Origin: Miscanthus floridulus
Taxonomy: Eukaryota; Streptophyta; Magnoliopsida; Poales; Poaceae
Length of the DNA stretch: 64,000 nucleotides
Assembly (NCBI RefSeq): GCF_019320115.1
Contig: NC_089593.1
Coordinates: 9,186,386 to 9,250,385, forward strand
Direction: 5' to 3'
The notes below the pieces were generated by a model. The model worked only from the letters and a program-made list of their open reading frames with translations, was not told where the DNA came from and made no database searches. Below are positions 1,332 through 44,630 of this stretch, piece after piece (position 1 is the stretch's first letter; each line of letters begins with the position of its first letter). Position numbers and translations under genes: made by a program.

Positions 1332-1336
1332 CACGG

Positions 1337-1579
1337 TGTTAAAGATGTAGATTGACTCGCTTGTGTTGCTACCTTGTATCTAGGCGTATCTAGACACATG
1401 GTGTATCCTCAAGGTTGTTAGCATGTTGTTGTTAAGTTAGAGCATGTATAGCCGGTTAGTTGCAACAACCTTGACTCATTGTAATCTAATCTTGTAAGCC
1501 ACGTGAGGGGCGGTTCCTCACCTATATTAACACGTAGCCGAGAGACCCAGAAGGTTATCTCGTTCCCTCACATTTTATA
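1337..1579 (+). repeat. 5' LTR of the copia element
   Basis: 243 bp, starting TGTTAAAG and ending CATTTTATA. Against the 3' LTR I count 7 substitutions and one 1-bp indel, about 3 percent divergence. This implies an insertion age near one million years if a grass LTR rate of about 1.3e-8 per site per year is assumed. Confidence 0.93.
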
Positions 1580-1590
1580 TGGTATCGAGC
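1580..1590 (+). promoter_or_regulatory. Copia primer-binding site
   Basis: TGGTATCGAGC directly follows the 5' LTR. It resembles the initiator-methionine tRNA 3' complement (TGGTATCAGAGC) used by plant copia elements, with one base missing. Confidence 0.85.
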
Positions 1591-1617
1591 GTTTTTTTCC
1601 TCACGGAGTAGATCCAA

Positions 1618-7520: not shown

Positions 7521-7533
7521 GATTGAGGGGAAG
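7521..7533 (+). promoter_or_regulatory. Copia polypurine tract
   Basis: GATTGAGGGGAAG lies immediately before the 3' LTR. It is the expected plus-strand priming site for reverse transcription. Confidence 0.85.
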
Positions 7534-7777
7534 TGTTAAAGATGTAGATTGACTCGGCTTGTGTTGCTACCTTGTATCTAGGCGTATCTAGACACATGGT
7601 GTATCCTCAAGGTTGTTAGCATGTTGTTGTTAAGTTAGAGCATGTATAGCCGGTTAGTTGCAACAACCTTGACTCATTGTAATCTAATCTTATAAAACAC
7701 GTAAGGGGCGGTTCCTCACCTATATTAACACGCAGCCGAGAGACCCACGAGGTTATCTCGTTCCCTCACATTTTATA
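7534..7777 (+). repeat. 3' LTR of the copia element
   Basis: 244 bp, same ends as the 5' LTR. It is followed by the target duplication CACGG (7778-7782). The insertion lies just upstream of the PPR coding region, so this LTR may now supply promoter sequence to that gene; this is inference. Confidence 0.93.
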
Positions 7778-12265: not shown

Positions 12266-12956
12266 TCATTCTTCTGCAAGCAGATAAGCTGAATCCTTGG
12301 AAGTAAAGTAAGTACTTGTGTTCACTGCATGCACAGAACGATCCCCGACTGGCAGGTCGCCATAAGCCTGTTCCTCCATGACTCGAATGTGCCATTCATC
12401 ATGCACAGCACGAAGTACCGGCAACTCTGCATCTGCAGGTCGCAAAACATCCATAGCTTTCTCGATGGGCGGTCGCTGGATCGGGTCTCGATGCGCACAC
12501 CAGAGGCCCGTAACGAGCACGCGCTCCATTTGCTGCCGGTCGAACTCGCCGTTCAGCCTCTGATCTGCTGCATCAAGAATCATGCCCTGGTCATACAAAC
12601 GAATGACCCAGGCTAGTAGCGATGAAGCTCCATTTGGCTGCCTCCATGCCGGCCGCTTGCCACAAGCGATCTCCAGGAGGACAACACCGAAGCTGTAGAC
12701 ATCCAATTCGGCGCGAGGCCAGCGGTTGGTTATGAACTCCGGGTCGATATATCCTGGTGTCCCCGCGACAACTTGCGTTGTTTGTGGCTCTTCCCCATGC
12801 TCGACAAGCCTTGCTAGCCCAAAGTCACCAAGCTTAGCATTGTATGACACATCAAGCATTACATTTGCAGGCTTGATGTCTCCGTGCACAATGCATTTCT
12901 CACAGTCCCGGTGGAGGTAGAGCAAAGCGTTGCCCAGATCAAGTACAATCTTGTAC
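12266..12956 (-). CDS. CHARK: CHARK exon 6: kinase C-lobe
   Basis: 691 nt after acceptor CTAG; intron 5 is 143 bp (12957-13099). It encodes the catalytic loop [11 protein letters not shown], then [11 protein letters not shown], an activation loop ending PGYIDPEF, and the family-typical [18 protein letters not shown]. The catalytic Asp is preceded by Gly, so the kinase is formally non-RD; HGDIKP is common in lectin receptor kinases. The stop codon is at 12266-12268. All usual kinase residues that I can check are present. Confidence 0.88.
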
Positions 12957-15900
12957 CTAGTGATGTTTTGACATGAGTAACGAAATATATTGTCAGTTCA
13001 ATTATTATGAAACAGATCAATGTTTGTAGTGTTCAATCAGATATTCAGTGCTGTAACTGCGAGGGAGATGGAGGTAGACAGGTTAGCCAATTTCGATACC
13101 TTTGTTGCCAAGTTAAGATTTCCTCTGGGTCGTAGAGATGCTTGTCAAGGCTGCCTTGAGCCATAAGCTCATAAACAAGGATGAGCCGTTGCTGGCTGTC
13201 GCACTCGCACCAGCCGACAAGGTTGACAATGTTTCGGTGCCTCAGCTGGGTCATGACTTTCACCTCTGCCTTGAACTCCCTCAACCCTTGCTCAGATTGT
13301 TGTTGAGAAGACAACACCTTGATGGCCACATGACAGTCCTGGTTCCGCAAGTAGCCTTTGTACACAGGGCCAAACCCTCCCTGGCCGAGCTTGTTCTCAT
13401 CGGCGAAATTGCTCGTTGCAGCTACCAGCTCGCGGAGTTGGAATCGTCTAGGCCCCATTATTCCTCCGGGGAGTTCCAGTAGTTCGTTTTGTTGCACTCT
13501 CTTACTACGGTTGCACCACAGCAGGAGCCATACAGCAATGCCAAGTACAAGCACGATAACTGAAACTAAGGCAATCCAGAGACCTACTGTAGTTTTGTGT
13601 GACACATGTGCTGGCTGGTGAGGTTTGACTGTTCCCAGTGGCGGATCGGCTCTCCATTTTTTTTGTATCCTCCACCTCTTCTCCCTCACCCTCCCCATAT
13701 TTTCATTGATGCACCAGCTGTAGGGGTTGCTGAAGTCCCCCCCAGCCCCTCCTGTAGATCCGCCCCTAACTGTTCCATTTTGCATCTCTGTAGCCTCTTC
13801 CTGATATTTGCTTGAGATGTGTGAATACCAGTGCTGCTGCTGCCGCCCAGAACTGTTATTATTCCCTGTCATCTTTCTTAGATCAACACTGATCATGTCA
13901 CTATTCTCCACACCACCTTCAGCCCATGCACCATTGAGTGTATCAATCAACGAGCTACCATGAGACCAACCGAATTTGTTAAGCATCATGTTCTCATCCT
14001 CCCTTCTGATGCCCAAACTCTGATTGAATGGCAGATCAAAAGCACCAATGACAGGAATGCAGAGCATCAATCCAAGAAGGGTGACGCTCACTACCTTTCT
14101 TCTCAAGTAGAAAAGCAGAGAAGGCACTGCATCCTCTGGGTGCGTCTCGAGCACAATCATCTCGTCTTCAACTCTAGCAATGCGTTTTGCAATCAGTAAA
14201 GCAATCACAAGATTTCCAACTGATGACGTTATTGCCGTTGCAATCAGTAAAGCAATCACAAGACTTCCAATTGGTGACATTATTGCCATCCACGGCCAAG
14301 GTGGGCTCTGAATGAACCTATTAAACAGAAACAGATCATACAAAGAGCATTCAAAGAATAGACTAGGATTTTTTTTTATTTTTAGTCCTTTTTTAATCAA
14401 TATTTTAATAATAGCCATAGCAAAAAAAGATTAATCAAAACTGACCCCTTTTGTCACTTCAGCGCGGTTGGCGCGACAACACCACGCTGTCGCGCAACAT
14501 GTACTAGCGCGACAAGAGGAGCCACGGTGGCGGAGACCGGTGACCCAAGCTGGCGTGGCGCGTGGTGGGGCTCACCCTGTCACGCCAACGACTCGGGCGT
14601 GACAGCGCTGTCGTGCCAAGCGAGCTGTGCGACAAGGCCATATATGTGTCGTAGCTCCTTTCTTCTTCCTTCTCACTTCTCTCTCCCTCTTTCCTGAGCT
14701 CGTGAACGGGAAAGCTCTAGGTCTTCTCTCTCTTCTCTTCCTCCCATTCTCTTTGTCTATGTGATCAAGTTTGGATTTGGCTTTTGGTTTGCAACGGTCT
14801 CGTGCAGGAGGTATGACTCCCTCACCCTATGATGTTTTTTTATTGAATTGATGTTTGTAGACTACTATGGTTTACAGTGCAGTGGCAATACTAGCTTTTG
14901 TTTGGATGACACGGGCTTTTGTTTGCACCAACCCTATATCGGAGGCGGAGACCGCTGACCCGAGCCTTTGTAGAAAGTGGGTCGGCCCACCAACCCTATA
15001 TGGAGCTGGCGCGACAGGGTGGGCCCCATCGTCCGCCACACCAGCTCAGGTTGTCGGTCACCACCACCGTGGCACCCCTTGTCGCGCCTGTGCATGTGAC
15101 GCGACAGAGTACATGATGTTGTTGCGCCACTCGCGCTGTCGCGGCCAAAGGCGCTAGATTTGTTTAATCTTTTTAGCCTCGGTTATTATTAAAATATTGA
15201 TTAAAAAGGATTAAAAAGAAAAAAACCAATATACTACATGGATAACACATTTAAATTACATTACAGTTTTTTTTGAAAAGGAAATAGATCACCTGCAGTG
15301 CATCTCATGCTTCCTTGACGGGTCACTGAAGTCCAGTGTGCTGACATGGCACATGCCACTCCCTGTATCATTCGAACCATACATACCGAGTGGTCTGTCA
15401 TACGTAGTAGTATCATACACGTTCACCATGATGGATTGCTTGACCGCGACCTCGTGAAGCAGCTTATCAGCAAGCGCTTCAATGTAAATTATGGCACCTA
15501 AATAGCTGTTTGCGCGCACACACACAATAGAGGCAGCGGTAATTCAGTTTCAGTTGTGGGCGATTTCTTACTTGAAATATGAGGCCGGACTCATGAAAAG
15601 CTTACCCTATAGCAGCCTCAATGCGCTCATGTGGCCTGGCATTTGAGGGAAGCTCGTACTTGTACACAGCGAAGGTCAAGATCACTCCGATGCGATTATC
15701 GAGAAGCTTAAAAGGAGCAGTAAGAACACCCTTGCCAGATTCTCTAGCTCGAAGTACATTTTTGCTGTCGTCCTATAACAGCCATAGATGTATAGAGATT
15801 AGTGGATGGATAGCCCTGGTTGCTCGTGACGTGAACAATTTTGTTACCATGAGTAATGGAGCCCCGAAGTAAACAAGAAAGGGCAAAAATCCGAGGTGAA

Positions 15901-18900
15901 ATAGGGTAGCAACACGACGACTTTTTTTTTGTTTCCAAGGGAGGGAGGCTTATACTAAATATTGGCACAGTCCATCCCCAAATTACACATAAAAAATCTA
16001 AAATAAAAAAATACATAAATTCTATGTAGATTCTTTCATCGTCTTCTTCTCCAACGGCTTCCCTCGAACACCGGAGCCAAAGTGCAGTCCTTATGTTGAA
16101 TCCAACGACCAACCCTAAAACATTGGACATGCCGCAAGATCCAATGCTTCGGAACCAGTCTAAAATGCATCTAAATCGCTGAAAAAAATATCGGCAGTTG
16201 TATCGTGGGGTGTGAAAGCATCTAGGCCCCTAGTTAGATTTCGGTGATTAATGTCAATACAAGATTACTATGACTAACGTGTGTTTTGAAGAGGCAATTA
16301 AGTTAGGTCATGGTAATGGAGATCAATTGGGCAATCGAGGTTGTCATGCCCCTACGATGGAAATCGTTTCGGTTTTCAAAGGATTGACGACAAGGTTAAG
16401 GATGACTAGTTCTAAGTGTCGATTGGAGTTGGAGAGACACTTAGAGTAGTTTAGGACTTTGTTTTTCCTTTAGCCGTACTATTCAGTTTCAGTTGTGGGC
16501 GATTTCTTACTTGAAATAGGAGGCCGGACTCATGAAAAGCTTACCCTCGCTCATGTGGCCTGGCATTTGAGGGAAGCTCGTACTTGTACACAGCGAAGGT
16601 CAAGATCACTCCGATGCGATTATCGAGAAGCTTAAAAGGAGCAGTAAGAACACCCTTGCCAGATTCTCTAGCTCGAAGTACATTTTTGCTGTCGTCCTAT
16701 AACAGCCATAGATGTATAGAGATTAGTGGATGGATAGCCCTGGTTGCTCGTGACGTGAACAATTTTGTTACCATGAGTAATGGAGCCCCGAAGTAAACAA
16801 GAAAGGGCAAAAATCCGAGGTGAAAAAGGGTAGCAACACGGCGACTTTTTTTTTTGTTTCGAAAGGAGGGGGGCTTATATTAAATATTGGCACAGTCCAT
16901 CCCCAAATTACACATAAAAAATCTAAAATAAAAAAATACATAATATTCTATGCAAATTATTTTATCATCTTCTTCCCCAACGGCTTTTCTCGAATACCGG
17001 AGCCAAAGTGCAGTCCTTATGTGAATCCAACGACCAACCCCAAAACATTGGACATACCGCAAGATCTAATGCTTCGGAACCAGTCCAAAACGCATCTAAA
17101 TCGCTGAAAAAATATCGGCAGTTGTATCGTGGGGTGCAACATAGGCTGCAGAATCATCACCTCGAGACCTTGAATTTCTCTCCGCGACCATTGACGATGA
17201 GATCAATGACCCGCAGTCGTTGTCCTCACAGGGGCTCCCAGAAGCACCCTTCCCCTTGTAGATAAAGGCCACAAATTGGCCGCCTGCCGATGAAATCGAC
17301 TCGACGCCCGCAACGACGATCTCGTCGTGGCAATCACCGAAGTCAGCGCAGGAAAACACGATTCCGACAAAAAATCATCTGATTTCGTCAAAAGATTTAT
17401 TTGAATCAAACCCTAAGCACCTGAAATTTTTGTGAGGAATTTAAAAGATGTGTCCCCTCCCCTTCTTATCCTGGCAGACACGTCGGATAGGAAGAAGGCG
17501 AGGGGCCCCAGGCGGTGGCGGTGAGGAGTTCTGTGGTTGCGGCGATCTTGCGAGAGGAGCAGGCCTGGCTTGCGAGACGAAAAAGTTTAACACATGATGA
17601 ACACCAGAGACTCCAGCTTTTAAGGAACACCTAATACGCAATTACTTTTTTGTTGCTTCTCTTGACCCCGCGTCGTCCCTGTGACGACTCGGGGGGGGGG
17701 GGGCATCCGCCGCCGCCGCCGAGGGACCATCGGGGCCGCCCCTTCAGCCACCATCGCCGCCCCGTCCGACGTGCGGTGCCGGCGACCCACGGCACTACTG
17801 CTAAAAAAGACGGCAACTGTGTCCTCCTTCCCCCCCCCTCCTTCCTCCCCTCCCTCTTCCTCTCCTCCCCCTCGCCCTCCCCGACCTCCTCCTTGGCTAG
17901 CGGAGCTCTGTGGTCGGCGACGCTCCTAGGATGGCGGCGTCATTACTGGCCGCTAGATCTGTCTTGCTGCGGTGACTGTCGGCTCTATGGTGGTGGTGCC
18001 CCTCGCTGGTAGCTGGATCTGGCTTGGGCCAGGCCAGGGCGGACCGGTGGCCGCACCTCCAACCTGGTGGCGGCCAGATCCGGCAGATGGGTGGCCAGGC
18101 AGCCACTTTCCCTGCTCGCTCCTCGCTGGTGGCGACCAGGGGCTGCGGTGGCGGCGACCACGTCTCCTACTGCGAGGCCTGGCTCCCCGACGGCGACCTG
18201 CGCCTTGCGCGCGCTGGTGCTGAGCCTGGACGCTAGCCGTGTCATGCTCGCCTTCATCGGCTGCTCGGGCGGCGTGGCGGGGCTCCTCGTCGCCAAGAGC
18301 CTCGCTTCGAGCTGTGGCCTAGGCACGCGCGTGCTCCTGGCCACCTTTGAGATCCACGCCTCTGGGGTGGCGGCAGGCCTTCATGTCACACCCCAAAAAT
18401 TCCATTTTGGGTTGCGAATAGTTTTCACTGAATAAAATTAATGCTTTCATCATTTTTTAAAGTTTCCAAGATTTAATTAGGGTTTTTGTAATTTATAATG
18501 TGAAAAATGTTGATTTTTAAATAACTTTTGTAATATAATGTGAAGGGTGTTGCATTCATGCCGGTTGCATTTGGTGTTTATGAGTGCAAACGGTTTTGAA
18601 ATATGATAAGCGGCGTTTCTTTCTCTCCGGGAAATTTTCTAACCTTTTCTAGAATTAAATTCCTTTTTTCTTGGGCTTAATATTTTTCCTTGATCTTTGC
18701 AACAATCTTTTCATGAGCTCAAACAACTTTAGTTGAGTTCCTCATCCTTCAATCTATCTCCAGGATTTTTCCGGGGATTTTTCTGAGCTTCGGGCTATTT
18801 TTCGTGGCTTAAAAACCAATTCTGGATTTTCTGGAATTATTTTAATTCACGAAATTAAAATAATCCCAAAACCCTAATTTTTCCACCGACCCAAACCCTG

Positions 18901-21900
18901 CCTATAAATACATGCCGGTGTTCTGCTCGACGCCCTCATTCATTTGCCCTACATCTATCGTCGAAGTTGCGACGGCGAACCTTTCGGACGAAGGTTCGGT
19001 GGGTTTTTTCGGCCAACTACGGCGTCCCCTGCGAACTCCGAGACCACCTAGAGGTAGATCTCTTCGTTCTCTACACCGTGGTATATCCTATTGCACGAAT
19101 CCATCACCGTTTGACCCGTTTCCCATCTCATCTATTTTTTCCGGCGAGTGTTCTCCATTGCCGGTGTCTTCCTTGCTTCTCTGCTGTTACTGCTGGCCAC
19201 CGCGCTACCCAGCCAGCCCGCCATGCCACTTCCCTGGCTGGACCAGCCCCCTCCCCCCCCCCCCACGCCCCTAGCCCTGGCCAAGGCCGCCCCTTGCCCC
19301 CTTCCCTTTCCTGCGTAGCCCGGCGCCCTGGCCGCTGCACCCCCGTTGCTGTCGCTGCAGGCCAGCCGCTGGCCGGCCGCTCGTCCTCCCTAGCCGGCCG
19401 CCCTGCGCCCCCCAGCCAGCCTTGCTTTCCCCTGCTAGCCCTTGTTCCTTCCCCTGGCCGAGGCCGCCTGTTCCCCTGCCCCTTCCCTACCTGTGCGTGA
19501 ACAGCAATCCCTGCCATAGCTGATTGGATCAGAGGTAGAGGAAGGGCATATTCGCAATTAAATATTTTCTAAAATCACAGATAGGTCCTGGTTCATTCAA
19601 TTTCCGTCCTTTTCATCTATTATTCCTTCATATCAAACCCGAATTCAATTCTTTCAGTTTTATCTTTTCAATATATATTTCTATCATTGTTTAATCATGC
19701 CAGTACTATTTATTTCATCTATTTCAGAGCGTTTCACGTGAAATACCTGAAATGCCCCTCCTTCCGATGAATCTTCCGGAGTCCGTATCTTTTCCGTCCG
19801 ATCTCCATTTTCAGCGGTTTTTGCGCTCACGCGATCGTAGAAACAAGACCTACGCGTAAGTAACCTTTTCATAAGTTGTTTATCATGTTTGGTGTACTGC
19901 TTTTATTTATTTGTATATATTTGCTTGTATGTCTATGCGCCCGAAGATTTGCCGCGATGGAAGAGAAGTCATCGGTGGACCCCGAAGACCAAGAGTTGAG
20001 TTGTTATGCGTTTCTAAGCCTAAGGCAAGTGTCCTTGACCATACTTGTTCCTACTTTTGTTTTGATTTGAGTTAGTTTAGTTAGACCATTAGTTGTATGC
20101 TGAGTCATAATTTGAATCATATATTAGGGTTTACTAGAACTTGATGTTATCATTGAAAGGATCTAGGATGTCGCCTAGAGGGGGGTGAATAGGCGTTTCT
20201 GAAAAATCAACACCTTTAAAAGCGGAAACGATTAGTAATAGGAGTTTCCAAAATGGAAACTCCAAATCAAAGTAATACAACCCCTCACAAGTTAGCCACA
20301 AAGTATATAAAAGATACTAGATAAACCTAGGGAGCCAAACAGCGGCAACCAAAGAGTTGAATCAAAATGCACTAGTCAGTTAATGTCGGAAGTCCCGACG
20401 TTTGGGTCAGAACTTCCGACGTGTCGGAAGTCCCGACGATTGGGTCAGAACTTCCGACGTGTCAGAAGTCCCAACAGTTTGAGTCAGAACTTCCAACGCA
20501 AACTGTCAGCACTTCCGACCCCTGCGGGAAATGAACTACAAGTGCTAAAATGAACTTTGCGATGCCGATAACTTACAAACCCACTTCCTAGTGGTAAGGT
20601 AAGGTGTTGGGTCACTCTCTTGACGTCGATAAGCCACCAATCCGTAGATCGAGTCCCAAACCCTAAGAAATAGCTAGAGAGAGGGAGACAACCAAATACA
20701 AGTAATTTCGAGCAAATCACAACAACAAGCACGCGGGAGACAAGAATTTATCCCGAGGTTCGGTAGCCCCACAAAGGAGTTCCTACGTCCTCGTTGTTGA
20801 GGTGACCACTTAGGTCGGAGTCTCTTCCACCTCCTTGCCTCACTCAAGGATACCACAAAGGTCACTTGAGTTTCTTCACTAGAAAACAAGGGTAATACAA
20901 ACTTCCCAAGGCTCTTCCACAAGATGGAAGCTCTTGGGCGACGCCTAGCCGGCTAGGGGAAAACCCCCAAGAGTAACAAATGCAAATCAAACCGGCTTGA
21001 CGAAGAAATCAAGTGCTCAAGCTTGCTCCAAGTGTTTTTCTCACTCAATCCACTCTCCAATCACTCAAACCCTTTGGGAATCGAAGTTGGAAGTAAGGGA
21101 GTGAAGAGAGGGGAGCCTAGAATGCTTGGGGGCTGTTTGGCCGAGTGTTTGTCGCAATGAAATGAGTGGGCAACGGTTAGAAGTGAGGAGAGGGGTATTT
21201 ATACCCCAAGTGAAAATCAAACCGTTCAGATCTACGTCGGAAGTTCCGACGCAGATCTCGGGACTTCCGACGTATGAAGAAAACACTGTTCACAACAGGT
21301 CAGAAGTCCGTGTGTGCAAGTCAGTGTCGGAACTTCTGACAAACGTCGGGACTTCCGACGGTCATCACTTCCGACGTACGTCGGGACTTCCGACGGTCAT
21401 CACTTCCGACGTACGTCGGGACTTCCGACGGGCACAGTTAAACAAACAGCCAACACCGCTGAGGCCGGGACTTCTGACTGTCGGGACTTCCGACACACGT
21501 CGGGACTTCCGACTGTCGGGAGTTCCGACACACGTTGGGACTTCCGACGTCCACAGTCACCGCGCAGGCTGTGACTGAGAGTCAGCACTTCCGGCAAGAG
21601 TCATGACTTCCGACTGTCGGGAGTTCCGGCTTACGTCGGGACTTCCGACACCGACAGTCACAGAAAATTATTCTATGTGCTCGTGAAGTGCTAGAGTGTC
21701 TCATTATTGATTTAGTTATTATGCTTGAGCACTCTATCTTCCTCAGACCACCTAAACTTGCATCCCTCTTAATAGTACGGCATTCCTATTAACTCAAATT
21801 TAAAAGTATAAGGAAATTAAACCTTTTGAGTTGATCTCTTTGAACCGAAGCCGTGTTTTCCAATCTTCATCAAGTGAGGGTGCCAATCATGTTGATATTG

Positions 21901-27900: not shown

Positions 27901-30900
27901 GCAATTTGGAGATGAGAAACTTTTCTTGATTTTGAAGTGATTGCTCTTGTTTCTCATTCTCTTCCTCTAGCTCATCATTCTTCTCAACTAGCTTCATGAG
28001 AATGAGCTTGTCTTTGTTGCTTAGATGATCAAGAGTGTAGCTATCTTCAATTTCAACATCACTCTCTTCTTGATCATCTACTCGTGCTATCTCCTTGGCT
28101 TGATCTTTCTTGCTAGCCTTCTTCCTGCTTTTCTTGGCCATGAGACACAAGTGATGAGTATCATGAGATGAGGTTGACTCATCACTTGGCCGCCACCGGG
28201 CTTGAGCCTCATCATCACGGACTGTCTGCTGTCCGGTTGCCTCGGCTTGCACCTCTTGCTCCGGCTCGGCGCTCTTGAGGTCTTGTGAGGCTTCTTCGCT
28301 GCATGAAGACATAATGGACATATTTTCCATTGACTCGACCTCAAGTGCATCATCGCATTTGGATTTTCCATATAACTCAACGAGTTTGGTCCAAATGAGA
28401 TGAGCACTCTCCGGAGGTTGTTGTCCATTGAATATTGCCTCATCTTGAACCTCTGCACTCAATGTACTCAAAATGATATTAATAGCATGAGCATTGAGTT
28501 GCACGCATATCTCTTCCTCTTTTGATAAATTCTTATAGTTGCTCCAATCAACTATAGGAAGAGGTATGCTTGCAAACACAATATGCTCAACAAGAGGACT
28601 AATATCTCTAAAAGCATTGAGTACATGAATTGACCAAGGTAGAAAGTTTGAACCATCATTTTGGAGAAGCATTGGCTCCAACTCGATAGGCGTCGACATC
28701 CTTTTCTCACGGCGGTGAAGCTTTAGGTGAGAACCTCGCTTTGATACCAATTGAAAGGATCTAGGATGTCGCCTAGAGGGGGGTGAATAGGCGTTTCTGA
28801 AAAATCAACACCTTTAAAAGCGGAAACGATTAGTAATAGGAGTTTCCAAAATGGAAACTCCAAATCAAAGTAATACAACCCCTCACAAGTTAGCCACAAA
28901 GTATATAAAAGATACTAGATAAACCTAGGGAGCCAAACAGCGGCAACCAAAGAGTTGAATCAAAATGCACTAGTCAGTTAATGTCGGAAGTCCCGACGTT
29001 TGGGTCAGAACTTCCGACGTGTCGGAAGTCCCGACGATTGGGTCAGAACTTCCGACGTGTCAGAAGTCCCAACAGTTTGAGTCAGAACTTCCAACGCAAA
29101 CTGTCAGCACTTCCGACCCCTGCGGGAAATGAACTACAAGTGCTAAAATGAACTTTGCGATGCCGATAACTTACAAACCCACTTCCTAGTGGTAAGGTAA
29201 GGTGTTGGGTCACTCTCTTGACGTCGATAAGCCACCAATCCGTAGATCGAGTCCCAAACCCTAAGAAATAGCTAGAGAGAGGGAGACAACCAAATACAAG
29301 TAATTTCGAGCAAATCACAACAACAAGCACGCGGGAGACAAGAATTTATCCCGAGGTTCGGTAGCCCCACAAAGGAGTTCCTACGTCCTCGTTGTTGAGG
29401 TGACCACTTAGGTCGGAGTCTCTTCCACCTCCTTGCCTCACTCAAGGATACCACAAAGGTCACTTGAGTTTCTTCACTAGAAAACAAGGGTAATACAAAC
29501 TTCCCAAGGCTCTTCCACAAGATGGAAGCTCTTGGGCGACGCCTAGCCGGCTAGGGGAAAACCCCCAAGAGTAACAAATGCAAATCAAACCGGCTTGACG
29601 AAGAAATCAAGTGCTCAAGCTTGCTCCAAGTGTTTTTCTCACTCAATCCACTCTCCAATCACTCAAACCCTTTGGGAATCGAAGTTGGAAGTAAGGGAGT
29701 GAAGAGAGGGGAGCCTAGAATGCTTGGGGGCTGTTTGGCCGAGTGTTTGTCGCAATGAAATGAGTGGGCAACGGTTAGAAGTGAGGAGAGGGGTATTTAT
29801 ACCCCAAGTGAAAATCAAACCGTTCAGATCTACGTCGGAAGTTCCGACGCAGATCTCGGGACTTCCGACGTATGAAGAAAACACTGTTCACAACAGGTCA
29901 GAAGTCCGTGTGTGCAAGTCAGTGTCGGAACTTCTGACAAACGTCGGGACTTCCGACGGTCATCACTTCCGACGTACGTCGGGACTTCCGACGGTCATCA
30001 CTTCCGACGTACGTCGGGACTTCCGACGGGCACAGTTAAACAAACAGCCAACACCGCTGAGGCCGGGACTTCTGACTGTCGGGACTTCCGACACACGTCG
30101 GGACTTCCGACTGTCGGGAGTTCCGACACACGTTGGGACTTCCGACGTCCACAGTCACCGCGCAGGCTGTGACTGAGAGTCAGCACTTCCGGCAAGAGTC
30201 ATGACTTCCGACTGTCGGGAGTTCCGGCTTACGTCGGGACTTCCGACACCGACAGTCACAGAAAATTATTCTATGTGCTCGTGAAGTGCTAGAGTGTCTC
30301 ATTATTGATTTAGTTATTATGCTTGAGCACTCTATCTTCCTCAGACCACCTAAACTTGCATCCCTCTTAATAGTACGGCATTCCTATTAACTCAAATTTA
30401 AAAGTATAAGGAAATTAAACCTTTTGAGTTGATCTCTTTGAACCGAAGCCGTGTTTTCCAATCTTCATCAAGTGAGGGTGCCAATCATGTTGATATTGAT
30501 CTTTTCACTTGAGCATAGCCATCTTGAGCACGTGACTTGATTCCATTCATCAAATATGAATAACTCCAAATGCATCAAGTCACTTCCAACGCTTTGTCTA
30601 ATATAGGTTTGATCCTCCACATCAATATGACTATCGCAGCTTGATTAGTACCTCAACTAAATGCAAGTACTTCCTTCTTCACCCTAGCTAGGTTCTTCGG
30701 CCGCCAAGCCGTCGCTTGCCCTTCACCCTTGCTTAGTACCTCAAAGCCTTTCCTTGCTATCTTCACCATCTCAAGCCATCAAGTCACATCTTGTGTTGAA
30801 TCATCCATTCATTTGTATTGTTGTCTTTTTCTTTTCAATTTAGCAAGCTTCAAATATGAGACCATTCCATATGCAATCCCTCATGTCTCATTAATTAACT

Positions 30901-33900
30901 TTTATCGTGCTTGCTTTCACATAGATCATTGAAATCCCACAATAAATAAGCCTTCACATGAATTCCATTTGCATTGTTGTCTTATGCTTGAACTAGATTG
31001 TTTATACAACAATACATCATTTTTGGCTTTATACAATTTCATCAAGTATCTGTGAGATAATCAATTTCCTGTCTACACTTAGCAAACGGGTTAGTCCTTT
31101 AATCACGTTGTCATTCAATCATCCAAAACCCACTAAAGGGCTAGATGCACTTTCAATCATCCTTGTAACCTGGGTTGGTTGGGTAGCTGTCAGCTTAGCT
31201 TGCAGTCTTAGGTTGGAAAGGTTATCATTTAATATTGATTAATGATTTATGCAACTTGGGTTGGTAATGTTTATAGCAACATGGTGAATAGGAATCCAAT
31301 AGGATGGTTGGTTTTGGTGGAGGTGTGTGCTAGATTTTGGGTAAATATTTTCTGGTGGATTGTTGGAATTGGTGGAATGGATTGTGCTCGTTCCTGCTTG
31401 GATTCTAAGGACCGGTTCATGGACAAGTAACCTGGCTTAACAGCGCAACCTCGAGGGCTATATGGCTCTAGCCCTGGCCAAGTAATTAATTTCATCCAAG
31501 TTATGCTACATCAGGTCGGTTTGTGTGGCACAAGAGGAGGCTTCTGCAGTGGTGTTGGTATCCACTGTTAGTGGTTAGAAACCTTAGTGAAGGTGTAAAA
31601 CAGACTTGGAGGGACTTTGTAAAGGCCTTGTAGTGTGACCCCGCTGAGCACCTAGGTAGTGTGAAGTGTGATGGGGAAACATGACTCGTAGTGAAAGTGT
31701 GCAACCTCTGTAGAGTGTAAAACCGATATATCAGCCGTGCTCACGGTCAAGAGTGGCCTGGACTTCTTCTTGATTAGATGGCTCTGGTTCAGTTGGGCGG
31801 CTTGGATGGAATCCAAGTGTTGGTTTGCTTGGATGGGATCCAGGTGTGGTGCTCGAATGGGATTCGAGTGTTGGTTATAGTGGTTCTCCGAGGTGAAGGA
31901 AGATCTCACCTAGTTAAATAGGTGCTTAAGGTTTAAGGTAATAGGTGTGTTGCTTAAGGGCTTGTGTTAAACCCTGTTAGCCTTTCCTTGTGTTGGCCCG
32001 CATGTCATACTTTCCTACACTTGCAGAGTACATTTCGATGTGCTCACCCTTCTCTTTGTCCCCTTTGCTACCCCACCCAGCGGTTCGGACTAGAAGATGG
32101 AGTTTCTAGAAGATGGTGTTTCCTAAAGACGGTGTCGATGCTAGGCTAGTGTACCCCCGGTCAGCTGCCTAAAGGGATGGAGACCCTGCTTTGCTAGAAC
32201 TCTGATGTAATTTTGTGTTTAGACCCTCTAGTCATTTTTATATATATAATCTCTTTTGTAATAAACACTGCAATGTATCATTTTGTTGTCGCATGTATGA
32301 ATAAACAGATCATGCCATACATGTGATGTGCATTCAGTTTTGTTTTATGAAACTGGTGAAAGCATCTAGGCCCCTAGTTGGGTTTCGGTGATTAATGACA
32401 ATATGAGATTACTGTGACTAATGTGTGTTTTGCATATGCAATTAAGTTAGGTCATGGTAATGGCAATTGATTGGGCAATCATGGTTGTCATGCCCCTACG
32501 ATGAAAATCGTTTTGGTTTTCAAAGGATGGACGACAAGGTTAAGGATGGACTAGTTCTAAGTGTCGTTTGGTGTTGAAGAGACTTAAAAAAGTTTAGGAC
32601 TTTGTTTTTCCTTTGGCCGTACTATTAAGGGGGTATGAATGGATAACTTGACCTAGGTGAGTCTAGTGAGTTAGGTGTGGTGCACACTTGTCAAATCTAG
32701 CACTAGGTAGCTCCTAAAAAGCCCTTAGATCAATTAGAGTAAACTTTATTCACATATGATTGTGAGTTGGAAGTAAATGGAGGGTCAAATATTGACCAAA
32801 CGCTGGTTCTAGTGTGACGGGACGCTGGCGCAAAGTCTAGTCAGTTCATTTGATCAAGGTGAAGTCATTTGATTGTGACCGGACGCTGAGAGGTGAGTGA
32901 CCGGATGCTGGGTGCCAGCATCCGGTCAACTCCAGTAAGGTTCTAGAGAGCAGTTTTTGTGACCGAACACGTTCGGTCAGTGCTGACTAGACGCTGGTCA
33001 GTGTCCGGTCACAACTTAACTGTGTAGTGTCGGGTGAACTGACCGGAGCGTCCGGTCACCCCGTAGTGGCATATAACGGTTCGTTTTGAACCGGGGTGTA
33101 TAAATACTTCCTCTATTCATGTGAGGGGTCACTTTTGCTCATTCCAACAGCTGAGAAACACCCTTGAGAGTGCCAAGAAGAGCAAGGTTCTAGTGAGGTG
33201 ATTGAGATTTGAGAATCCAAGAGAGAGACCTCATTAGTGAAAGCAAGAGTAGCAAAGTGTGCATCCACCTTTCTCATTAGGCTTGTCGTGGTCAAGTGAG
33301 AGTTCATGCTTGTTACTCTTGGTGATCGCCATCACCTAGACGGCTTGGTGGTGATTGGGAGCTTGGTGATCATCCAGCGGAGCTTGTGGATGACCCAACT
33401 CAAGTTGTGAGCGGTTGTGGGTGATTCACCACGACGGAGTGTCAAAGAATCAACCCATAGAGAGCACTTGATCCTTGCGCGGATCAAGGGGGAGCTACAC
33501 CCTTGTGCGGGTGCTCCAACGAGGACTAGTGGGAAGTGACGACTCTCCGATACCTCGGCAAAATATCACCGCGTTCCTTCTCCTCTCTTTACTTTGAGCA
33601 ATCAAATTCTTATCTTTACATTCATAGAATTGCCATGCTAGAGTAGGATTGGAACATAGGTTGCTAAACTTTTGTGTGGTAGATCAATAGAAACACTTTC
33701 TAGGCACAAGGGGTTAATTGGGCTAACCATAGGGCTTAATTATTACAAAAATTTTTAGAATTAACCTAATTCACCCCCCCTCTTGGGCATCTTGACCCTT
33801 TCAACCGGGTGTGACACTTCGGCGCCCCAGGGTTGGGCGGCCAGCTTGCACCCACGGCGGCCAGTGCCTAGTGGGGGTCAGTGCTAGATCCACAACCTTG

Positions 33901-36900: not shown

Positions 36901-39375
36901 CTGGAAAGTGGAAACCTTTTATTTTCTGTTGCAGGGATACTACATCAAAGTTTATGCATTTATGGCATTCTTTCCATGTGCCATTTATAGGATAGAACAA
37001 TAATAGTACTTACTCCACTAGCACTACTGTATGTGCAACTGCAACTACATTGAAATAGAAAAGATTGTTGTTTGCCTGCTACTGCCACTGATTTACTCTA
37101 TCATGTAAAATTGCATTTCCCATGTTAACTTAGTTTAACTTGGAACTGTATACCATGCATTTATGTTACGGAGTATTTATATTAGCATGATGTTTTTTCT
37201 TGCACCAAATCTTTTATTTTAGTGCTCAATTTAAACATCAATGTTGCATATGAACCAACTCAAAATAAGGTCACTAAAATGCGCTGGATTGATTGTTTAG
37301 GTTAAGCTGAAAGCTATAGCTTAGGTGTATATTGCATTCTATTTATATAGTACATCATAGCTAAGGTCGGTTGTTGTGGGCTGTGGCAACAGACATATTA
37401 CAGCCCAAAACCAGTTTAAATGTCCCGGTCAGACAACATTAAGGGACTATTTAATCCCCTTGTATTTCCTTAAGTCCCTAGAGTAACAGTGTTTCTATGC
37501 ATTTGGATATTGTTTAAATTTTCTGTAAGAGATAACTGAACTTCTATTACTACATTAGTTGAATACACACTATTTTTTTCATCTCTTCTCTTTGCAGGAG
37601 ATCATCTCGTCGAGGGGATTGGATTTTCTACTGATCTGAGCGCATGTGCCAATTGAATCATGTTAAGGTTATAAGGTTAGTTTCAGTTAGACTGTCACAT
37701 ACTTAATGGCCTAGTCTCTTTTGTTTTCATATGATTTAGTAGAGCTCTTGTTAATGCAGCAGTTGAAATCATATGAAAGCAGTCATACGAATTAGACTTA
37801 TGAATTATGTCTATTTAATAATGGATTGTATATATTCTTATGAATTAACTTTAATAACAAGTAAAGTTAATCAGTTAATTATATTTTTGCAGGTGTGCAT
37901 GAGTTGTCAGGTGTGCATGAGCACAGTTACTTTATATCGATTCTCAAGATGTATACATATCGACAATCCTCATTAGCTTATATGTTTGTATACATATTTG
38001 TAACGTTCACTTAGGTAGAAATCCTCAGTACCAACACCTTGTGTTCTTGTGCTTGTGGTCAGATTTGAATTATATATATATATGTGTGTGTTTTCTAGTC
38101 AAATTTGAATTGTAAATTTGAATTATTTTTGACGGAAAAATGTACTGTAGGGATGGTTCTAGACTAAACCGCTCCTACAAACAGATATTATAGGGGCGGC
38201 TGATACTACGGCCGCCCCTACAAATCGATTTTATAGCAAATCGATTTGTAGGGACGGCTGATAACAACAGCCAGCTCTATAAATCGATTTGTGGGGGCGG
38301 TCTGGGAACCGTCCCTACAAATACATGATTTGTAGAAACGGTATGGTTGGAGTGGCTGGCCGAGCCACCTTTTAAAACTATCGCCAGTCGCTCCTACAAA
38401 TACTTATTATAGTATTGCACTAGCTTAGTAGTTCGTAATCTGTGCTACGGGAACTCTCTCATATCTGCCTGGATAATTCACTTCTCTAGATGAAAAACGG
38501 GTTATGTTTCCGATCGCGGAAAAAAAAAGACTCCAGTTTTTTTTTTACGGCCGTAGGCCTGCGCTGTGATCTGTTAATGAAAAGGATAAAATCTTTGCGA
38601 GGGGAAGGGAGGGGAGGAAGGGGCTGGGCTGGGGGCGGAGAGAGTGCTCACAGAGCCGGATAGCAAGTCGAAGGAGATGACGTGCTTGTGGTGGGTGTCC
38701 TGCGCGAAGATTACAGGAGCGTACTCCTCCGCCGGCTCCCGCTCCTCCGCGTCCATGGCGTTCCCTGGTCCCCGCGACAGCTTCTTGGTCTTGGAGGAGT
38801 ACATCTTCTTGATGCTCCATCCTTGCTGGCGCTCGAACTGCTCCCGCTCGGTGCAGTTGACCCGCACCCCGTACTCCACCCCGCTCGTCAGCGGCCGCTC
38901 GAACACCGTCCTCTCCGCGTACCTCGCGAACGTCATCTGCAGCCGCCGGCCGGCGGCCGCAGCAACGAACAAACTAAATCAAATGGGATTCGCCGCAGAC
39001 GGCCGGAAAGAAGAAAGCTTCCTTTAATTTGATAGCAGAGCAGGTGTACCTGCCTACCTGGTCGATGGCAGAGGAGGGGTTCTTGGAGTGGTGGAAGGTG
39101 GAGATGAGGATGGCGAGCGCCTGGAGGCTGTTCATGCTGACATTGACCTGGTACTGGAGCATGCGCGCGCGCTCGTCGCACATGCTGGCGAGCGACTCCC
39201 AGCGCTTCTCGGCGACCTGGGAGCTCGTGTAGTCGAGGATGAGGTACGACATGAGCGCCCAGGCCGCCGGAATCACCACCCATCGCCAGTGCTCCCGGAG
39301 CATGCGCGAGGCAAGGCACCCGGTGGTCCGCAGCCGCGACTTAGCAAACAGCACAAGCGCCAGCAGGAGGCGCAT
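12266..39375 (-). CDS. CHARK: CHASE-domain receptor Ser/Thr kinase (CHARK-type), 6 exons, 963 aa
   Basis: Exons in transcript order: 39375-39058, 38936-38652, 15772-15606, 15505-15293, 14317-13100, 12956-12266. Every junction is GT-AG, phases agree (0,0,2,2,2) and no stop interrupts the 2,892 nt. Residues 1-330 follow cytokinin receptor histidine kinases: TM1 about 32-49, then a CHASE domain ([49 protein letters not shown]), then TM2. Instead of HisKA, ATPase and receiver domains there is a Ser/Thr kinase: GQGGFG 639-644, K661, HGDIKPAN with D760, DFG at 778. It most resembles L-type lectin receptor kinases. The same architecture is described in rice as CHARK, thought to sense cytokinin at a membrane. 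Oddities: a 22.9-kb intron 2 full of transposons, a second exon 3 copy, a MITE in exon 5 and a doubled TM2. The true start could lie upstream of 39375. It could be a decaying allele; transcript data would decide. Confidence 0.82.
13100..14317 (-). CDS. CHARK: CHARK exon 5: TM2, linker with MITE, further membrane segments, kinase N-lobe
   Basis: 1,218 nt, opening with [13 protein letters not shown], the histidine-kinase segment that enters TM2. A 51-bp tandem duplication doubles TM2 (residues 338-354 and 355-371). After RIARVEDEM the similarity to histidine kinases stops. A hydrophobic stretch (about 403-421) may be a relic lectin-kinase signal peptide. Residues 512-558 come from an in-frame hAT MITE. 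A strong membrane segment (about 572-595) is followed by basic residues and the kinase N-lobe ([23 protein letters not shown]). Donor GTATCG lies at 13099. Confidence 0.82.
13636..13768 (+). mobile_element. hAT-type MITE inside a CHARK exon
   Basis: 133 bp with terminal inverted repeats CAGTGGCGGATC and (reverse complement of the right end) TAGGGGCGGATC. The 8-bp target duplication ACTGTTCC lies at 13628-13635 and 13769-13776, as expected for hAT. Element plus one duplication is 141 bp, exactly 47 codons, and the CHARK frame reads through it on the - strand. Its ends match those of the larger hAT element at 50457-51612. Confidence 0.93.
14187..14290. repeat. 51-bp tandem duplication in CHARK exon 5
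   Basis: Two adjacent copies of a 51-bp unit (TGCAATCAGTAAAGCAATCA...) with a few substitutions. It encodes a repeated 17-residue hydrophobic unit ([17 protein letters not shown] / [17 protein letters not shown]), doubling TM2. Confidence 0.88.
14366..15227. mobile_element. MULE-like element in CHARK intron 4
   Basis: 862 bp with imperfect inverted ends of about 70 bp (GGATTTTTTT... and ...AAAAAAACC, sharing TTTAATCAATATTTTAATAAT). The flanking 9-bp repeat is AATAGACTA / AATATACTA, one mismatch, a Mutator-type length. The interior has repeated GCGACA / TGTCGC words and a pyrimidine-rich leader-like stretch but no transposase. Without it, intron 4 would be about 105 bp. Confidence 0.8.
15293..15505 (-). 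CDS. CHARK: CHARK exon 4 (end of CHASE domain)
   Basis: 213 nt between acceptor AACAG and donor GTGATC. It encodes [18 protein letters not shown], then [20 protein letters not shown], then [11 protein letters not shown], which in cytokinin receptors closes the CHASE domain just before TM2. The Cys residues near the end are those expected in the family. Confidence 0.85.
15542..16212. repeat. Direct repeat copy A: CHARK exon 3 with flanks
   Basis: About 670 bp, duplicated at 16481-17136. It contains part of intron 3, exon 3 and the 3' end (poly-T at about 15922-15930) of a poly(A)-tailed retroposon lying antisense. Similarity stops at 16212, where a Sirevirus LTR fragment begins. Confidence 0.9.
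15606..15772 (-). CDS. CHARK: CHARK exon 3, copy A (complete)
   Basis: 167 nt after acceptor TATAG and before donor GTAAGC. It encodes [20 protein letters not shown] and onward to the ERIEAAIG region of the CHASE domain, in frame with exon 2 (phase 0) and exon 4 (phase 2). A second copy lies 0.9 kb upstream in transcript order at 16696-16545. Confidence 0.85.
16213..16483 (+). mobile_element. 271-bp Sirevirus LTR 5' fragment at the duplication junction
   Basis: Begins exactly at the LTR terminus TGAAAGCATCTAGG. It matches the first ~270 bp of the solo LTR at 32357-33803, then breaks off at CCGTACTATT, where copy B of the CHARK repeat starts (shared bases ATT). It is truncated, with no second end and no target duplication. 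Confidence 0.88.
16481..17136. repeat. Direct repeat copy B: CHARK exon 3 with flanks
   Basis: The second copy of 15542-16212. The exon sequence is unchanged except for a 15-bp deletion. Non-coding parts differ by scattered substitutions and small indels. It continues beyond 17136 into unique retroposon sequence, so this is probably the original genomic context on that side. Confidence 0.9.
16545..16696 (-). CDS. CHARK: CHARK exon 3, copy B (alternative or decoy exon)
   Basis: 152 nt with the same acceptor (TATAG) and donor (GTAAGC) as copy A. Apart from a 15-bp in-frame deletion that removes five residues (IEAAI) before the donor I see no difference. Each copy starts in phase 0 and ends in phase 2, so either can join exons 2 and 4. 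Including both would shift the frame, so if used they must be mutually exclusive. It comes first in transcript order. Whether it is spliced is unknown. Confidence 0.55.
16840..17640 (-). mobile_element. Poly(A)-tailed retroposon-like sequence, antisense
   Basis: On the - strand this reads as a leader-like region, a small open frame (17359-17096, 87 codons, no known domain), an AT-rich tail with AGCCCCCCTCCTTTCGAAAC, and a terminal A run (T run at about 16845-16855). That layout fits a LINE-derived or processed-transcript insertion in CHARK intron 2. No reverse transcriptase is visible. The 3' part is also present in repeat copy A. The call is tentative. Confidence 0.4.
17641..18383. other. 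GC-rich repeat-like DNA, left part
   Basis: High-GC sequence with low-complexity C and G runs (about 17689-17703). Long overlapping frames exist on both strands but resemble base-composition artefacts, and no domain is seen. It is interrupted at 18384 by the gypsy LTR and appears to continue at 33817. Confidence 0.35.
20154..22557 (-). repeat. 3' LTR of the Sirevirus
   Basis: 2,404 bp, TGAAAG...CTTTCA. It contains clustered short palindromic words around GTCGGGACTTCCGAC, in both orientations, at about 20390-20520 and 21230-21660. A TATA-like TATAAATA (- strand) lies near 21200. Confidence 0.93.
22558..22572 (-). promoter_or_regulatory. Sirevirus polypurine tract
   Basis: On the - strand AAAAAGGGGGAGAT lies directly before the 3' LTR. 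Related tracts (CTCCCCCT on the + strand) recur at about 22652, 22732, 23152, 23206, 23302 and 26071, a multiplied-PPT pattern known from Sireviruses. Confidence 0.85.
22573..26779 (-). other. Non-coding internal region of the Sirevirus
   Basis: AT-rich, no long open frame on either strand. It holds the repeated PPT-like tracts, a near-duplicate ~125-bp block at about 25790-25920 and 25918-26045, and two copies of ACCGGACACGTCCGGT at 26325-26340 and 26347-26362. It occupies the place where pol would lie in an autonomous element. Confidence 0.8.
26780..28699 (-). CDS. gag: Sirevirus Gag polyprotein, 639 aa
   Basis: The structural protein that packages the retrotransposon RNA. From the N terminus: a UBN2/copia-type gag domain ([20 protein letters not shown], about residues 1-150), acidic and Lys-rich linkers, a long coiled-coil stretch (about 250-350), then three CCHC zinc knuckles ([48 protein letters not shown], about 480-590). 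It ends [14 protein letters not shown], a motif found at the Gag end in Sireviruses. The start at 28699 follows the primer-binding site by about 40 bp. The frame is intact, but no pol frame follows. Confidence 0.92.
   Translation of the reverse strand: MSTPIELEPMLLQNDGSNFLPWSIHVLNAFRDISPLVEHIVFASIPLPIVDWSNYKNLSKEEEICVQLNAHAINIILSTLSAEVQDEAIFNGQQPPESAHLIWTKLVELYGKSKCDDALEVESMENMSIMSSCSEEASQDLKSAEPEQEVQAEATGQQTVRDDEAQARWRPSDESTSSHDTHHLCLMAKKSRKKASKKDQAKEIARVDDQEESDVEIEDSYTLDHLSNKDKLILMKLVEKNDELEEENEKQEQSLQNQEKFLISKLQELKAINERYEKLSIEHALVTNSSSSVSQLEKENFELKAKLDELSSKYNVLQANYVHLKCSHEELVESSIMLEVAHEVVITTVKSSQPPTHTLTCTQSQLNISCANECASQASQSSIEQKFIENIELKEEVKRLKKDVIRLKGKEKAQPSQDNRDNMVKKLEKGSNLASSKTQQKNHISSKANTTKSKKYEKRMCYGCGLYGHEWATCPHKNWADKVEAATQKVSIKEAKQVKSDGQSACLMSKKLGHPIKKCPIYQESRKEAQVATRRCYGCNEMGHKVDGCPYKQNKHRANKGRICYACGRKGHLSYDCPKGNVPKPNTFVYNNMLRKTSNGVSTSKVMCSPQTSTKAIWVPKHLLTNPKGPNKSWVPKCA
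28738..28749 (-). promoter_or_regulatory. Sirevirus primer-binding site
   Basis: TGGTATCAAAGC on the - strand, two bases after the 5' LTR. It differs by one base from the initiator-Met tRNA complement TGGTATCAGAGC. Confidence 0.9.
28752..31155 (-). repeat. 5' LTR of the Sirevirus
   Basis: 2,404 bp, same ends and internal palindrome clusters as 20154-22557. All open frames in the two copies translate identically. Confidence 0.93.
32357..33803 (+). mobile_element. Solo Sirevirus-type LTR inside the gypsy LTR
   Basis: 1,447 bp from TGAAAGCATC to CCCTTTCA. The flanking repeat is ACTGG / ACCGG, a 5-bp target duplication with one change. It is the same family as 4277-5842, in the opposite orientation. 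It carries GACCGGACG-type motifs at about 32815-33060 and a TATA-like GTATAAATAC near 33100. Confidence 0.9.
33817..34736. other. GC-rich repeat-like DNA, right part
   Basis: A continuation of the sequence broken at 18383. It contains imperfect repeats of the word GCGGATRCTTTGCCG at about 34317-34560. No gene is recognised. Confidence 0.35.
34740..38417. mobile_element. Non-autonomous CACTA transposon
   Basis: 3,678 bp. Its ends CGCTACTATA and (reversed) CAATACTATA each differ by one base from CACTACTATA, and the 3-bp target duplication is CAC (34737-34739, 38418-38420). Sub-terminal blocks (about 34775-35020 and 38145-38400) are packed with TTTGTAGGGGCGGCT in both orientations, as is usual for CACTA transposase-binding regions. 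There is no transposase. The interior has a GC-rich leader-like part (about 35100-35640, possible donor GGTGAGG), an AT-rich part, and exon-like islands near 37600 and 37890, which suggests captured gene structure. Confidence 0.85.
38652..39375 (-). CDS. CHARK: CHARK exons 1 and 2: membrane anchor and first half of the CHASE domain
   Basis: Exon 1 (39375-39058, 106 codons) begins [10 protein letters not shown]. It carries a hydrophobic anchor ([16 protein letters not shown]) and the histidine-kinase-type stretch [29 protein letters not shown]. It ends in frame at AIDQ with donor GTAGGC. Exon 2 (38936-38652, 95 codons) follows acceptor CTGCAG. It carries the conserved CHASE core from [17 protein letters not shown] to [20 protein letters not shown] and ends at donor GTGAGC. 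Both junctions match the intron positions expected from plant cytokinin receptors. No phosphotransfer domains follow. A possible MITE lies 106 bp upstream of the ATG. Confidence 0.85.
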
Positions 39376-43703: not shown

Positions 43704-44232
43704 AAGAAGAATAAGGCGAAGATGCAAACTGGATACAAAAATCTGCACAACGTAACTAGGTATCCCTAGAAATACACGGTACCACCGGCGTAGGAAAGCA
43801 GGGAAAGAAATTTCACCCCCGAGAATCCTGTTCAGACATATTCTGTTAAAAAAATAGCGTGTCACACACTGACCACACAGCATGGGGCAAACACACACAG
43901 CAAGCCCTGCAAAACAAGTGCTGCATTGGAACTCAAGTTGATTTGGATGAATCCCCCACATTTGATATTTAGCACAACAGAAGTGATGATAATTAACAAT
44001 TTAGAGTGTCGCTGCCACATAAAATTGCAACAGTATGTTGCTTTCTGCCTTTTGTGAAACAGGCACACTGCACAACACAATACAGTACATTCTCTGTTGC
44101 TGGGTAGTGGACACAGAACATCAGCGCCAATCATCCTGGAGCAGAGAGCCTTCAGTTGGCCGGGGGCGAGGCTGGGACCTGTGTCATTGACATGTCAGGT
44201 GGACTCTGAACATGTTGCCACTCGAACAGAAC
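43704..44232. other. Intergenic spacer
   Basis: No gene recognised. Short frames only. Confidence 0.5.
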
Positions 44233-44630
44233 CGGGGAAGCGAAGCTTCTGTTCAGCTCCATCTTGTCCGCGCATGGCATGAACCCAACAGGGCCCAATT
44301 ATGTTTGCCTAATTGGCCTCCTGGCGCGAAGAGGACTGATGACTACTCGTTGAGGCAATGCCGTTCCAACCATGGCGTGCGGTATGGAGGCAGTTGTCGG
44401 ATCCATGGGAACAAAGAAGTCGAGTCTGCTTGCATTGCAGTTGCAGGTTGCAGCAGAACAGATCCTGAACTGAGAATGGCACCGAACAGTGATGCCGCAG
44501 TATGTCTCACTGTCGTGTCGCATGTCTACGCTGAAGATGGAGGCTGGCAGTCTGCAGAGGACTACCAGGAGGAAGATGGCTGAGAATCAAGTGCAGAAGG
44601 CGCAAGGTTACAGCACTGTTGAGATCTAGC
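44233..44630 (+). pseudogene. Decayed 3' fragment of the PPR gene
   Basis: Matches the last ~370 bp of the intact PPR gene (about 9877-10258): the stretch encoding KLLFSSMLSAHGMNP, the LLARKGL block and the E motif. Frame changes come from a deletion near 44330-44350 and small indels near 44390-44470. Nothing of the N-terminal three quarters is present. It is a remnant of a second copy, not a working gene. Confidence 0.9.

Follow-up and report, generated by a model that had tools for sequence, protein, structure and literature searches.

A predicted-intact, intron-bearing CHARK-type receptor gene in Miscanthus floridulus, probably built from HK3 genomic DNA

The window analysed here, by which we mean the whole stretch of 64,000 nucleotides of the Miscanthus floridulus genome (C14:9186386-9250385), carries what its sequence identifies as a real, predicted-intact and intron-bearing CHARK outside rice. 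The gene probably encodes a CHARK-type receptor with an HK3-derived 5′ half and a CHARK-specific 3′ half, in which the histidine kinase was lost by DNA deletion and for which signalling from cytokinin to a Ser/Thr kinase is proposed. It was evidently built from genomic DNA, introns included, and not copied from messenger RNA. In the published account (PMC7814049), CHARK is described as restricted to rice, as a trans-spliced retrogene and as being of unclear origin; no CHARK outside rice was found in print in the literature searched, which was mostly open-access, without preprints and in part available as excerpts.

The gene was rebuilt as six exons on the minus strand, running from 39375 to 12266 with GT-AG borders at every intron, which reproduced the coordinates, phases and 963 open codons proposed in an earlier reading of the sequence alone (the sequence-only reading). 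The coding sequence of 2892 nt specifies 963 residues plus the stop and contains no internal stop, compared with 44 and 46 stops in its two alternative frames. Introns 1-5 measure 121, 22879, 100, 975 and 143 nt, and the exon entry phases are 0, 0, 0, 2, 2 and 2. Exon 1 (39058-39375) provides the start codon, the TM1 region and the start of the CHASE ectodomain; within the open stretch no in-frame ATG precedes the one at 39375, and similarity to HK3 extends upstream of the exon as far as 39426. Exon 2 (38652-38936) continues the CHASE domain, with HK3 introns at the same positions in phase 0, and is followed by intron 2 (15773-38651), which spans 264 nt in HK3. Exon 3 (15606-15772), also CHASE and with its intron position and phase as in HK3, and exon 4 (15293-15505) complete the sensor. 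Exon 5 (13100-14317) encodes TM2, a residual linker, TM3, the TM3-TM4 segment, TM4 and the kinase N-lobe, and exon 6 (12266-12956) encodes the kinase C-lobe, including HGD and DFG, and the tail to the TGA codon.

Exon 3 lies within a tandem duplication of ~0.93 kb, whose upstream copy, exon 3b (16545-16696, minus strand), is 15 nt shorter than the downstream exon 3a. Either copy used singly keeps the frame and yields 963 (3a) or 958 (3b) residues. Joining 3b to 3a brings in a stop at codon 282; if neither copy is used, the frame ends at codon 210. This duplication had gone unnoticed in the sequence-only reading, as had the MITE-like insert and the doubled TM2 described below. None of 1000 simple shuffles of exon 5 remained open, which, together with the same six exons in the homeolog on C15 and the coincidence of introns 1-4 with those of HK3, argues that the frame is not due to chance. 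No tRNA was found in the 64-kb window.

The C15 homeolog contains these six exons within 5.1 kb (318, 258, 167, 228, 1197 and 691 nt), with an intron 2 of just 1789 nt. Its frame is interrupted once, by a TAG at codon 692 within the kinase, whereas that of the window copy is free of stops. Since its exons are collinear and its intron 2 is short, exons 1-2 belong with exons 3-6, and the proposal of a single gene was borne out. A neighbouring PPR gene (7826-10255, plus strand) encodes a protein identical at 801 of 808 positions to one from Miscanthus lutarioriparius and 86% identical to sorghum SORBI_3008G009500 over the part searched; its homeolog, P0126, adjoins the C15 CHARK and faces the 3′ end of the latter. 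A relic of a PPR 3′ end was observed at 44213-44626 of the window and at 6030-6445 of locus L029 (~45-48% protein identity), thus on both homeologous chromosomes, and this relic on the far side places CHARK between two PPR ends. Two further minus-strand ORFs of exon-like appearance (53387-54046 and 63148-63660) had no Pfam match and resemble parts of a RAPTOR gene. A partial, recent CHARK copy (L026, C14:5681013-5682711) on the same chromosome corresponds in part to exons 3-6. An insertion other than that of the window copy breaks up its exon 5, and a search of 9.9 kb at this locus revealed no exons 1-2.

Intron 2 of the window copy is ~21 kb longer than that of the C15 homeolog, and 11 kb of it corresponds to one young LTR retrotransposon (20152-31162, minus strand), which substantiates the earlier suggestion that the intron had grown by transposable elements. 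Its 2.4-kb LTRs (20152-22563 and 28750-31162) are 99.96% identical, with one gap and no mismatches, and the element includes a gag-like ORF with a zinc knuckle (28804-26780); no target duplication was evident at its ends as drawn. A MITE-like insert of 133 bp with an 8-bp target duplication is found in exon 5 (13636-13768, minus strand), which we presume to be hAT-like from the length of the duplication and the ends. Insert and duplication add 141 nt, i.e. 47 codons, translated in frame between TM3 and TM4. Both the C15 copy and L026 lack the MITE, so the empty site is visible in each. Elsewhere in the window, an element presumed to be of Copia type was observed between 245-bp LTR-like repeats of 96.7% identity (1336-7777), as well as LINE-like endonuclease and reverse-transcriptase ORFs on the minus strand (55433-58553).

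The CHARK architecture proposed beforehand, a CHASE domain joined to a LecRK-type kinase, was confirmed by Pfam, which assigned CHASE to residues 103-295 (E 9.8e-28) and Pkinase to residues 633-902 (E 1e-48), and by structure matches to the AHK4 sensor (3T4J, 3.1e-77) and to a lectin-kinase (6CTH, 1.2e-89), the sole structure found for the kinase at E 1e-60. HisKA, HATPase and receiver families were absent from the Pfam matches of the protein, as was any lectin family at E 0.001, and when the window was searched with HK3 beyond residue 427 and with the HATPase-receiver part of the protein P0123, nothing scored better than E 0.2. The CHASE domain is 74-81% identical to those of Andropogoneae HK3, and the kinase is 84-87% identical to CHARK kinases of other genera. 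AHK4 positions D262, T278, L284 and T294, which we take to be ligand contacts, are conserved, with HH replacing Y near the pocket as an oddity. The kinase keeps the glycine loop, VAIK and DFG, with HGD in place of HRD. CHARK is described as having four membrane helices (PMC12115143). TM3 and TM4 are clear in the window protein, TM1 falls under the cut-off used, and TM2 is a doubled hydrophobic stretch of 37 residues generated by a 51-nt tandem duplication in exon 5 (14188-14289, minus strand; 46 of 51 positions identical), which the C15 homeolog shares; this doubling makes the membrane topology uncertain. An AlphaFold2 model of the protein P0122, computed from an 11-row alignment, was set aside owing to a mean pLDDT of 35.6.

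The origin of the 5′ half can be followed in its introns. In HK3 (C5 copy), introns follow residues 145, 239, 294.67, 364.67, 427, 444.33, 521, 554 and 923.67, and the first four (145 and 239 in phase 0, 294.67 and 364.67 in phase 2) coincide with CHARK introns 1-4 in position and phase. Their sequences also align with those of HK3, with 53/65 and 134/153 identities for introns 1 and 2 of the C15 copy and 81/92 and 43/48 for introns 3 and 4 of the C14 copy. In all eight comparisons (four introns in two CHARK copies, with the first 1500 nt used for intron 2 of the window), the score exceeded the best of 200 shuffles, the weakest case being C14 intron 1 (25 vs 21). Within the 300 nt upstream of the start, neither CHARK copy aligned to HK3 better than shuffles. 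Exon 5 of the C15 copy passes through HK3 exon 5 to its last codon (...DIAKSQ), continues for another 15 nt, of which 12 agree with the beginning of HK3 intron 5, and then enters the CHARK linker. In the window copy, this junction has been lost through further deletion.

In a protein search, 7995 candidates were scored and 120 of 927 matches were listed. Among these 120, at least 15 proteins contain a protein-kinase domain, comprising at least nine with a LecRK-type module (from Urochloa, Paspalum (three), Digitaria, Panicum, Miscanthus lutarioriparius, Oryza glumipatula and one more) and at least six with another kinase (from Aristida, Stipagrostis, wheat (two), Festuca and one more), some of which may be merged gene models. 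A precomputed CHASE assignment is present in eight of the nine LecRK-type proteins; the other, P0009 of Paspalum, consists of a CHASE end and a degenerate HisKA ahead of the kinase. Proteins predicted to be of CHARK type are thereby found in at least five panicoid genera among the matches listed. P0012, P0051, P0021, P0024, P0053 and P0057 join CHASE to a different kinase family, with CHASE first in Aristida and Stipagrostis and the kinase first in wheat, Festuca and one other source; they may have arisen by separate fusion events or through the merging of gene models.

When the linker between sensor and kinase of Urochloa P0002 served as query, nine proteins were retrieved, including P0002 itself, all with a LecRK-type kinase and with P0122 and P0123 among them. 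Ten linkers were then scored against the best of three HK3 proteins, with 200 shuffles each. The O. glumipatula linker (P0007) keeps a second-receiver stretch (score 230 vs 62 for the best shuffle), P0009 keeps the HisKA region (359 vs 61), P0003 a receiver piece (75 vs 60) and P0002, marginally, a receiver end (58 vs 56). The remaining linkers were weak or non-significant, with 1 (P0004), 9 (window), 15 (P0005), 76 (P0010), 107 (P0008) and 114 (P0122) of 200 shuffles scoring as well. The post-receiver linker of P0123 is common to eight of the ten, with 0 of 200 shuffles as good in each, the exceptions being Digitaria and the window; the C15 homeolog also has it. P0123 itself (JGI, 1031 aa, on a 4402-nt contig) encodes part of a HATPase, REC1, REC2 and the LecRK-type Ser/Thr kinase in one frame, and together with the remnants it fits a scenario in which read-through first fused a whole HK3 to the kinase and internal deletions then occurred separately. 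No tripartite locus was found in M. floridulus, where, of 45 candidates scored, three HK3 loci alone matched the HATPase-receiver part of P0123.

The two halves of the gene differ in their apparent history. A CHASE tree was computed from 49 rows, namely 48 proteins hand-chosen from the 120 listed and the window sequence. The window and P0006 (M. lutarioriparius) join Zea and Miscanthus HK3 (100/98), and seven other CHARKs form one clade (100/95). When exons 1-2 and exons 3-4 were entered as separate rows, in a tree without P0006 and P0009, from which much of CHASE is missing, both fell in the same set (96/83). Holding nine CHARKs together was not rejected by the AU test (p 0.116), and of the derived CHASE sites, two are shared only with Andropogoneae HK3 and two only with CHARKs. 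The CHASE dS to the resident HK3 is 0.14-0.18, roughly double the 0.077 that separates the homeologs. The kinase tree (12 rows, rooted by choice on Oryza, with P0006 and P0010 partial) is compatible with vertical descent, and the kinase has an Oryza counterpart. Given the grouping with HK3, the low CHASE dS and a kinase shared with Oryza, the sensor looks replaced; the good tree support, alongside an AU test that is not decisive, suggests that the sensor half was replaced by local HK3 DNA, which gene conversion or a fresh capture would explain alike. The claim that the gene is the orthologue of rice CHARK accordingly holds for linker and kinase and is in doubt for CHASE, in view of that HK3 grouping and dS, with the AU result and the sites divided 2 to 2 leaving room for it. 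In Paspalum, the CHASE end of P0009, which covers 37% of the columns, is placed beside the HK3 of that genus (90/72 and 92/98) and may represent a second sensor replacement. Nesting of the Oryza CHARKs in panicoids, as by horizontal transfer, was considered and set aside, given that a panicoid CHARK clade was not rejected (AU p 0.104) and branches are long.

Between the CHARK homeologs, omega is 0.67 overall (p 0.02). It is 0.40 in the kinase (21 of 36 changes non-synonymous, p 0.008), and values of 0.76 in CHASE (p 0.29) and 0.80 in the linker (p 0.27) are not separable from neutral; for comparison, the C5 and C6 copies of HK3 give 0.32 over 1009 codons. Over seven CHARKs, CHASE domains average 64% identity (21 pairs) vs 88% for HK3 CHASE (21 pairs, of partly matching genera), and the kinases average 85%. 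The kinase is therefore the better conserved half, being also the only part under detectable purifying selection. Of the assertion that the gene still codes, the open frame and the constrained kinase sustain one part, and sensor and linker cannot be told from neutrally evolving sequence. The family is undergoing decay, as indicated by the C15 stop, the exon 5 insertion in L026 and its exons 1-2 not being found, the near-neutral CHASE and the duplicated exon 3.

These same features favour a decaying pseudogene, i.e. a once functional CHARK whose frame has stayed open by chance since the homeologs split, as do the broken state of L026, the MITE in a coding exon, the doubled TM2 and the near-neutral linker. 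We regard this as unlikely, while giving it appreciable weight: splice sites are canonical throughout the 963 stop-free codons, the MITE and its duplication add a multiple of three, similarity to HK3 and P0123 persists in one frame over the whole coding sequence despite 9 and 14 gaps (numbers that depend on the alignment), and the kinase is constrained between homeologs, part of which constraint may predate the C15 stop. That the window instead holds two genes 23 kb apart which do not share an mRNA, namely a fragment of HK3 (exons 1-2) and a CHASE-stub/kinase gene (exons 3-6), would agree with the length of intron 2 and with a GC3 of 0.92 and 0.91 in exons 1-2 (39375-38652) vs 0.45-0.56 in exons 3-6. 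It would also agree with the M. lutarioriparius model P0006, which begins at exon 3; this model, albeit from a related species, is of the kind foreseen in the sequence-only reading, which expected automated annotation to split the gene. With collinear exons 1-6 around a 1.8-kb intron in C15, agreeing phases and a like placement of exons 1-2 and 3-4 in the tree, we consider two genes very improbable.

Least probable of all, to the point of being scarcely credible here, is a retrogene derived from a trans-spliced chimeric mRNA that gained introns later. This origin is published for rice, where several CHARK genes are intronless and transposable elements flank the gene (PMC7814049). A retrogene would miss its parental introns; in Miscanthus, four HK3 introns persist at their original positions, with phase and sequence preserved, and the coding sequence of the homeolog includes part of HK3 intron 5, which spliced mRNA would lack, so a trans-splicing or retrogene origin fails for this genus. 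Receiver or HisKA remnants in the linkers of some other grass CHARKs likewise fit deletion from a read-through fusion. The retrogene model is thus contradicted for Miscanthus, as far as the sequence speaks, and the rice copy itself lies outside this result.

In the preferred reading of a DNA-level fusion, the 5′ half, from exon 1 into the start of exon 5, is a genomic copy of HK3 with its introns, and the 3′ half consists of the TM3-TM4 segment and LecRK-type kinase that the CHARKs of Oryza and panicoids also have. Deletion at the DNA level would have removed the histidine kinase and receivers, and one breakpoint in the C15 homeolog lies inside HK3 intron 5. Transposable elements have expanded intron 2 with the frame left unbroken, and the compact homeolog has gained a stop. 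In the protein, cytokinin would bind the lumenal or apoplastic CHASE domain, the resulting change would cross the membrane along its helices, and the Ser/Thr kinase on the cytosolic side would be switched on and feed cytokinin output. CHARK is, to our knowledge, the only cytokinin receptor on record that works without a histidine kinase. The sequence itself establishes the structure of the Miscanthus gene, its ancestry and the retention of binding and catalytic residues; ligand binding and signalling are inferred from rice CHARK, which binds trans-zeatin and complements ahk2 ahk3 (PMC7814049).

A broader account, to which we give an even chance, is that the CHARK kinase module is an old grass signalling part that repeatedly takes a fresh sensor from the host HK3 by DNA-level recombination. 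It would have begun as a read-through fusion with a complete HK3 (CHASE-HK-REC-Ser/Thr-kinase), of which P0123 would be a surviving relative, and the histidine-kinase part would have been lost independently in several lineages. The Miscanthus sensor would have been replaced by local HK3 DNA, with a breakpoint in HK3 intron 5. P0009 may supply another instance in Paspalum, and locus L028 may show that the module attaches to other receptors too. At L028 (C1:76941000-76947500), a TM-TM-kinase module related to that of CHARK and sharing its intron position (3589-5288) was observed directly behind an ORF (1575-3551) with NB-ARC and winged-helix disease-resistance domains, as if the module may have become attached to an immune receptor gene too. 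Locus L027, considered as a lectin receptor kinase, was dropped because no lectin domain was shown.

With an intron-bearing CHARK, its DNA junctions, its homeolog and its parent gene in one genome, the fusion can be traced base by base, in a family wider than rice, and the remnant linkers and P0123 supply forms in which to study how the place of a phosphorelay can be taken by a Ser/Thr kinase. Among known systems, rice CHARK (OsCRL4) likewise combines an HK3-type CHASE with a LecRK-type Ser/Thr kinase and lacks histidine kinase and receiver; its genes are intronless or have two or three introns (PMC7814049), whereas the Miscanthus gene has six exons with HK3 introns. The latter further differs in lying outside Oryza, in a CHASE apparently acquired recently from the local HK3, in the doubled TM2 and in the 47 MITE-derived residues. 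With HK3 of the same genome (P0014; L010, L009 and L013) it shares exons 1-4, the start of exon 5, introns 1-4 and the CHASE sensor, but HisKA, HATPase, REC1 and REC2 are absent and a Ser/Thr kinase takes their place. Its kinase sequence is that of L-type lectin receptor kinases, with 6CTH by far the nearest solved relative, yet it carries a CHASE sensor and no lectin family, and has HGD and DPE where 6CTH has HRD and APE. P0123, finally, shares the TM3-TM4 segment, the kinase and the intron position with the window CHARK, and differs in that it retains both receivers and some of the HATPase, which share a reading frame with its Ser/Thr kinase.
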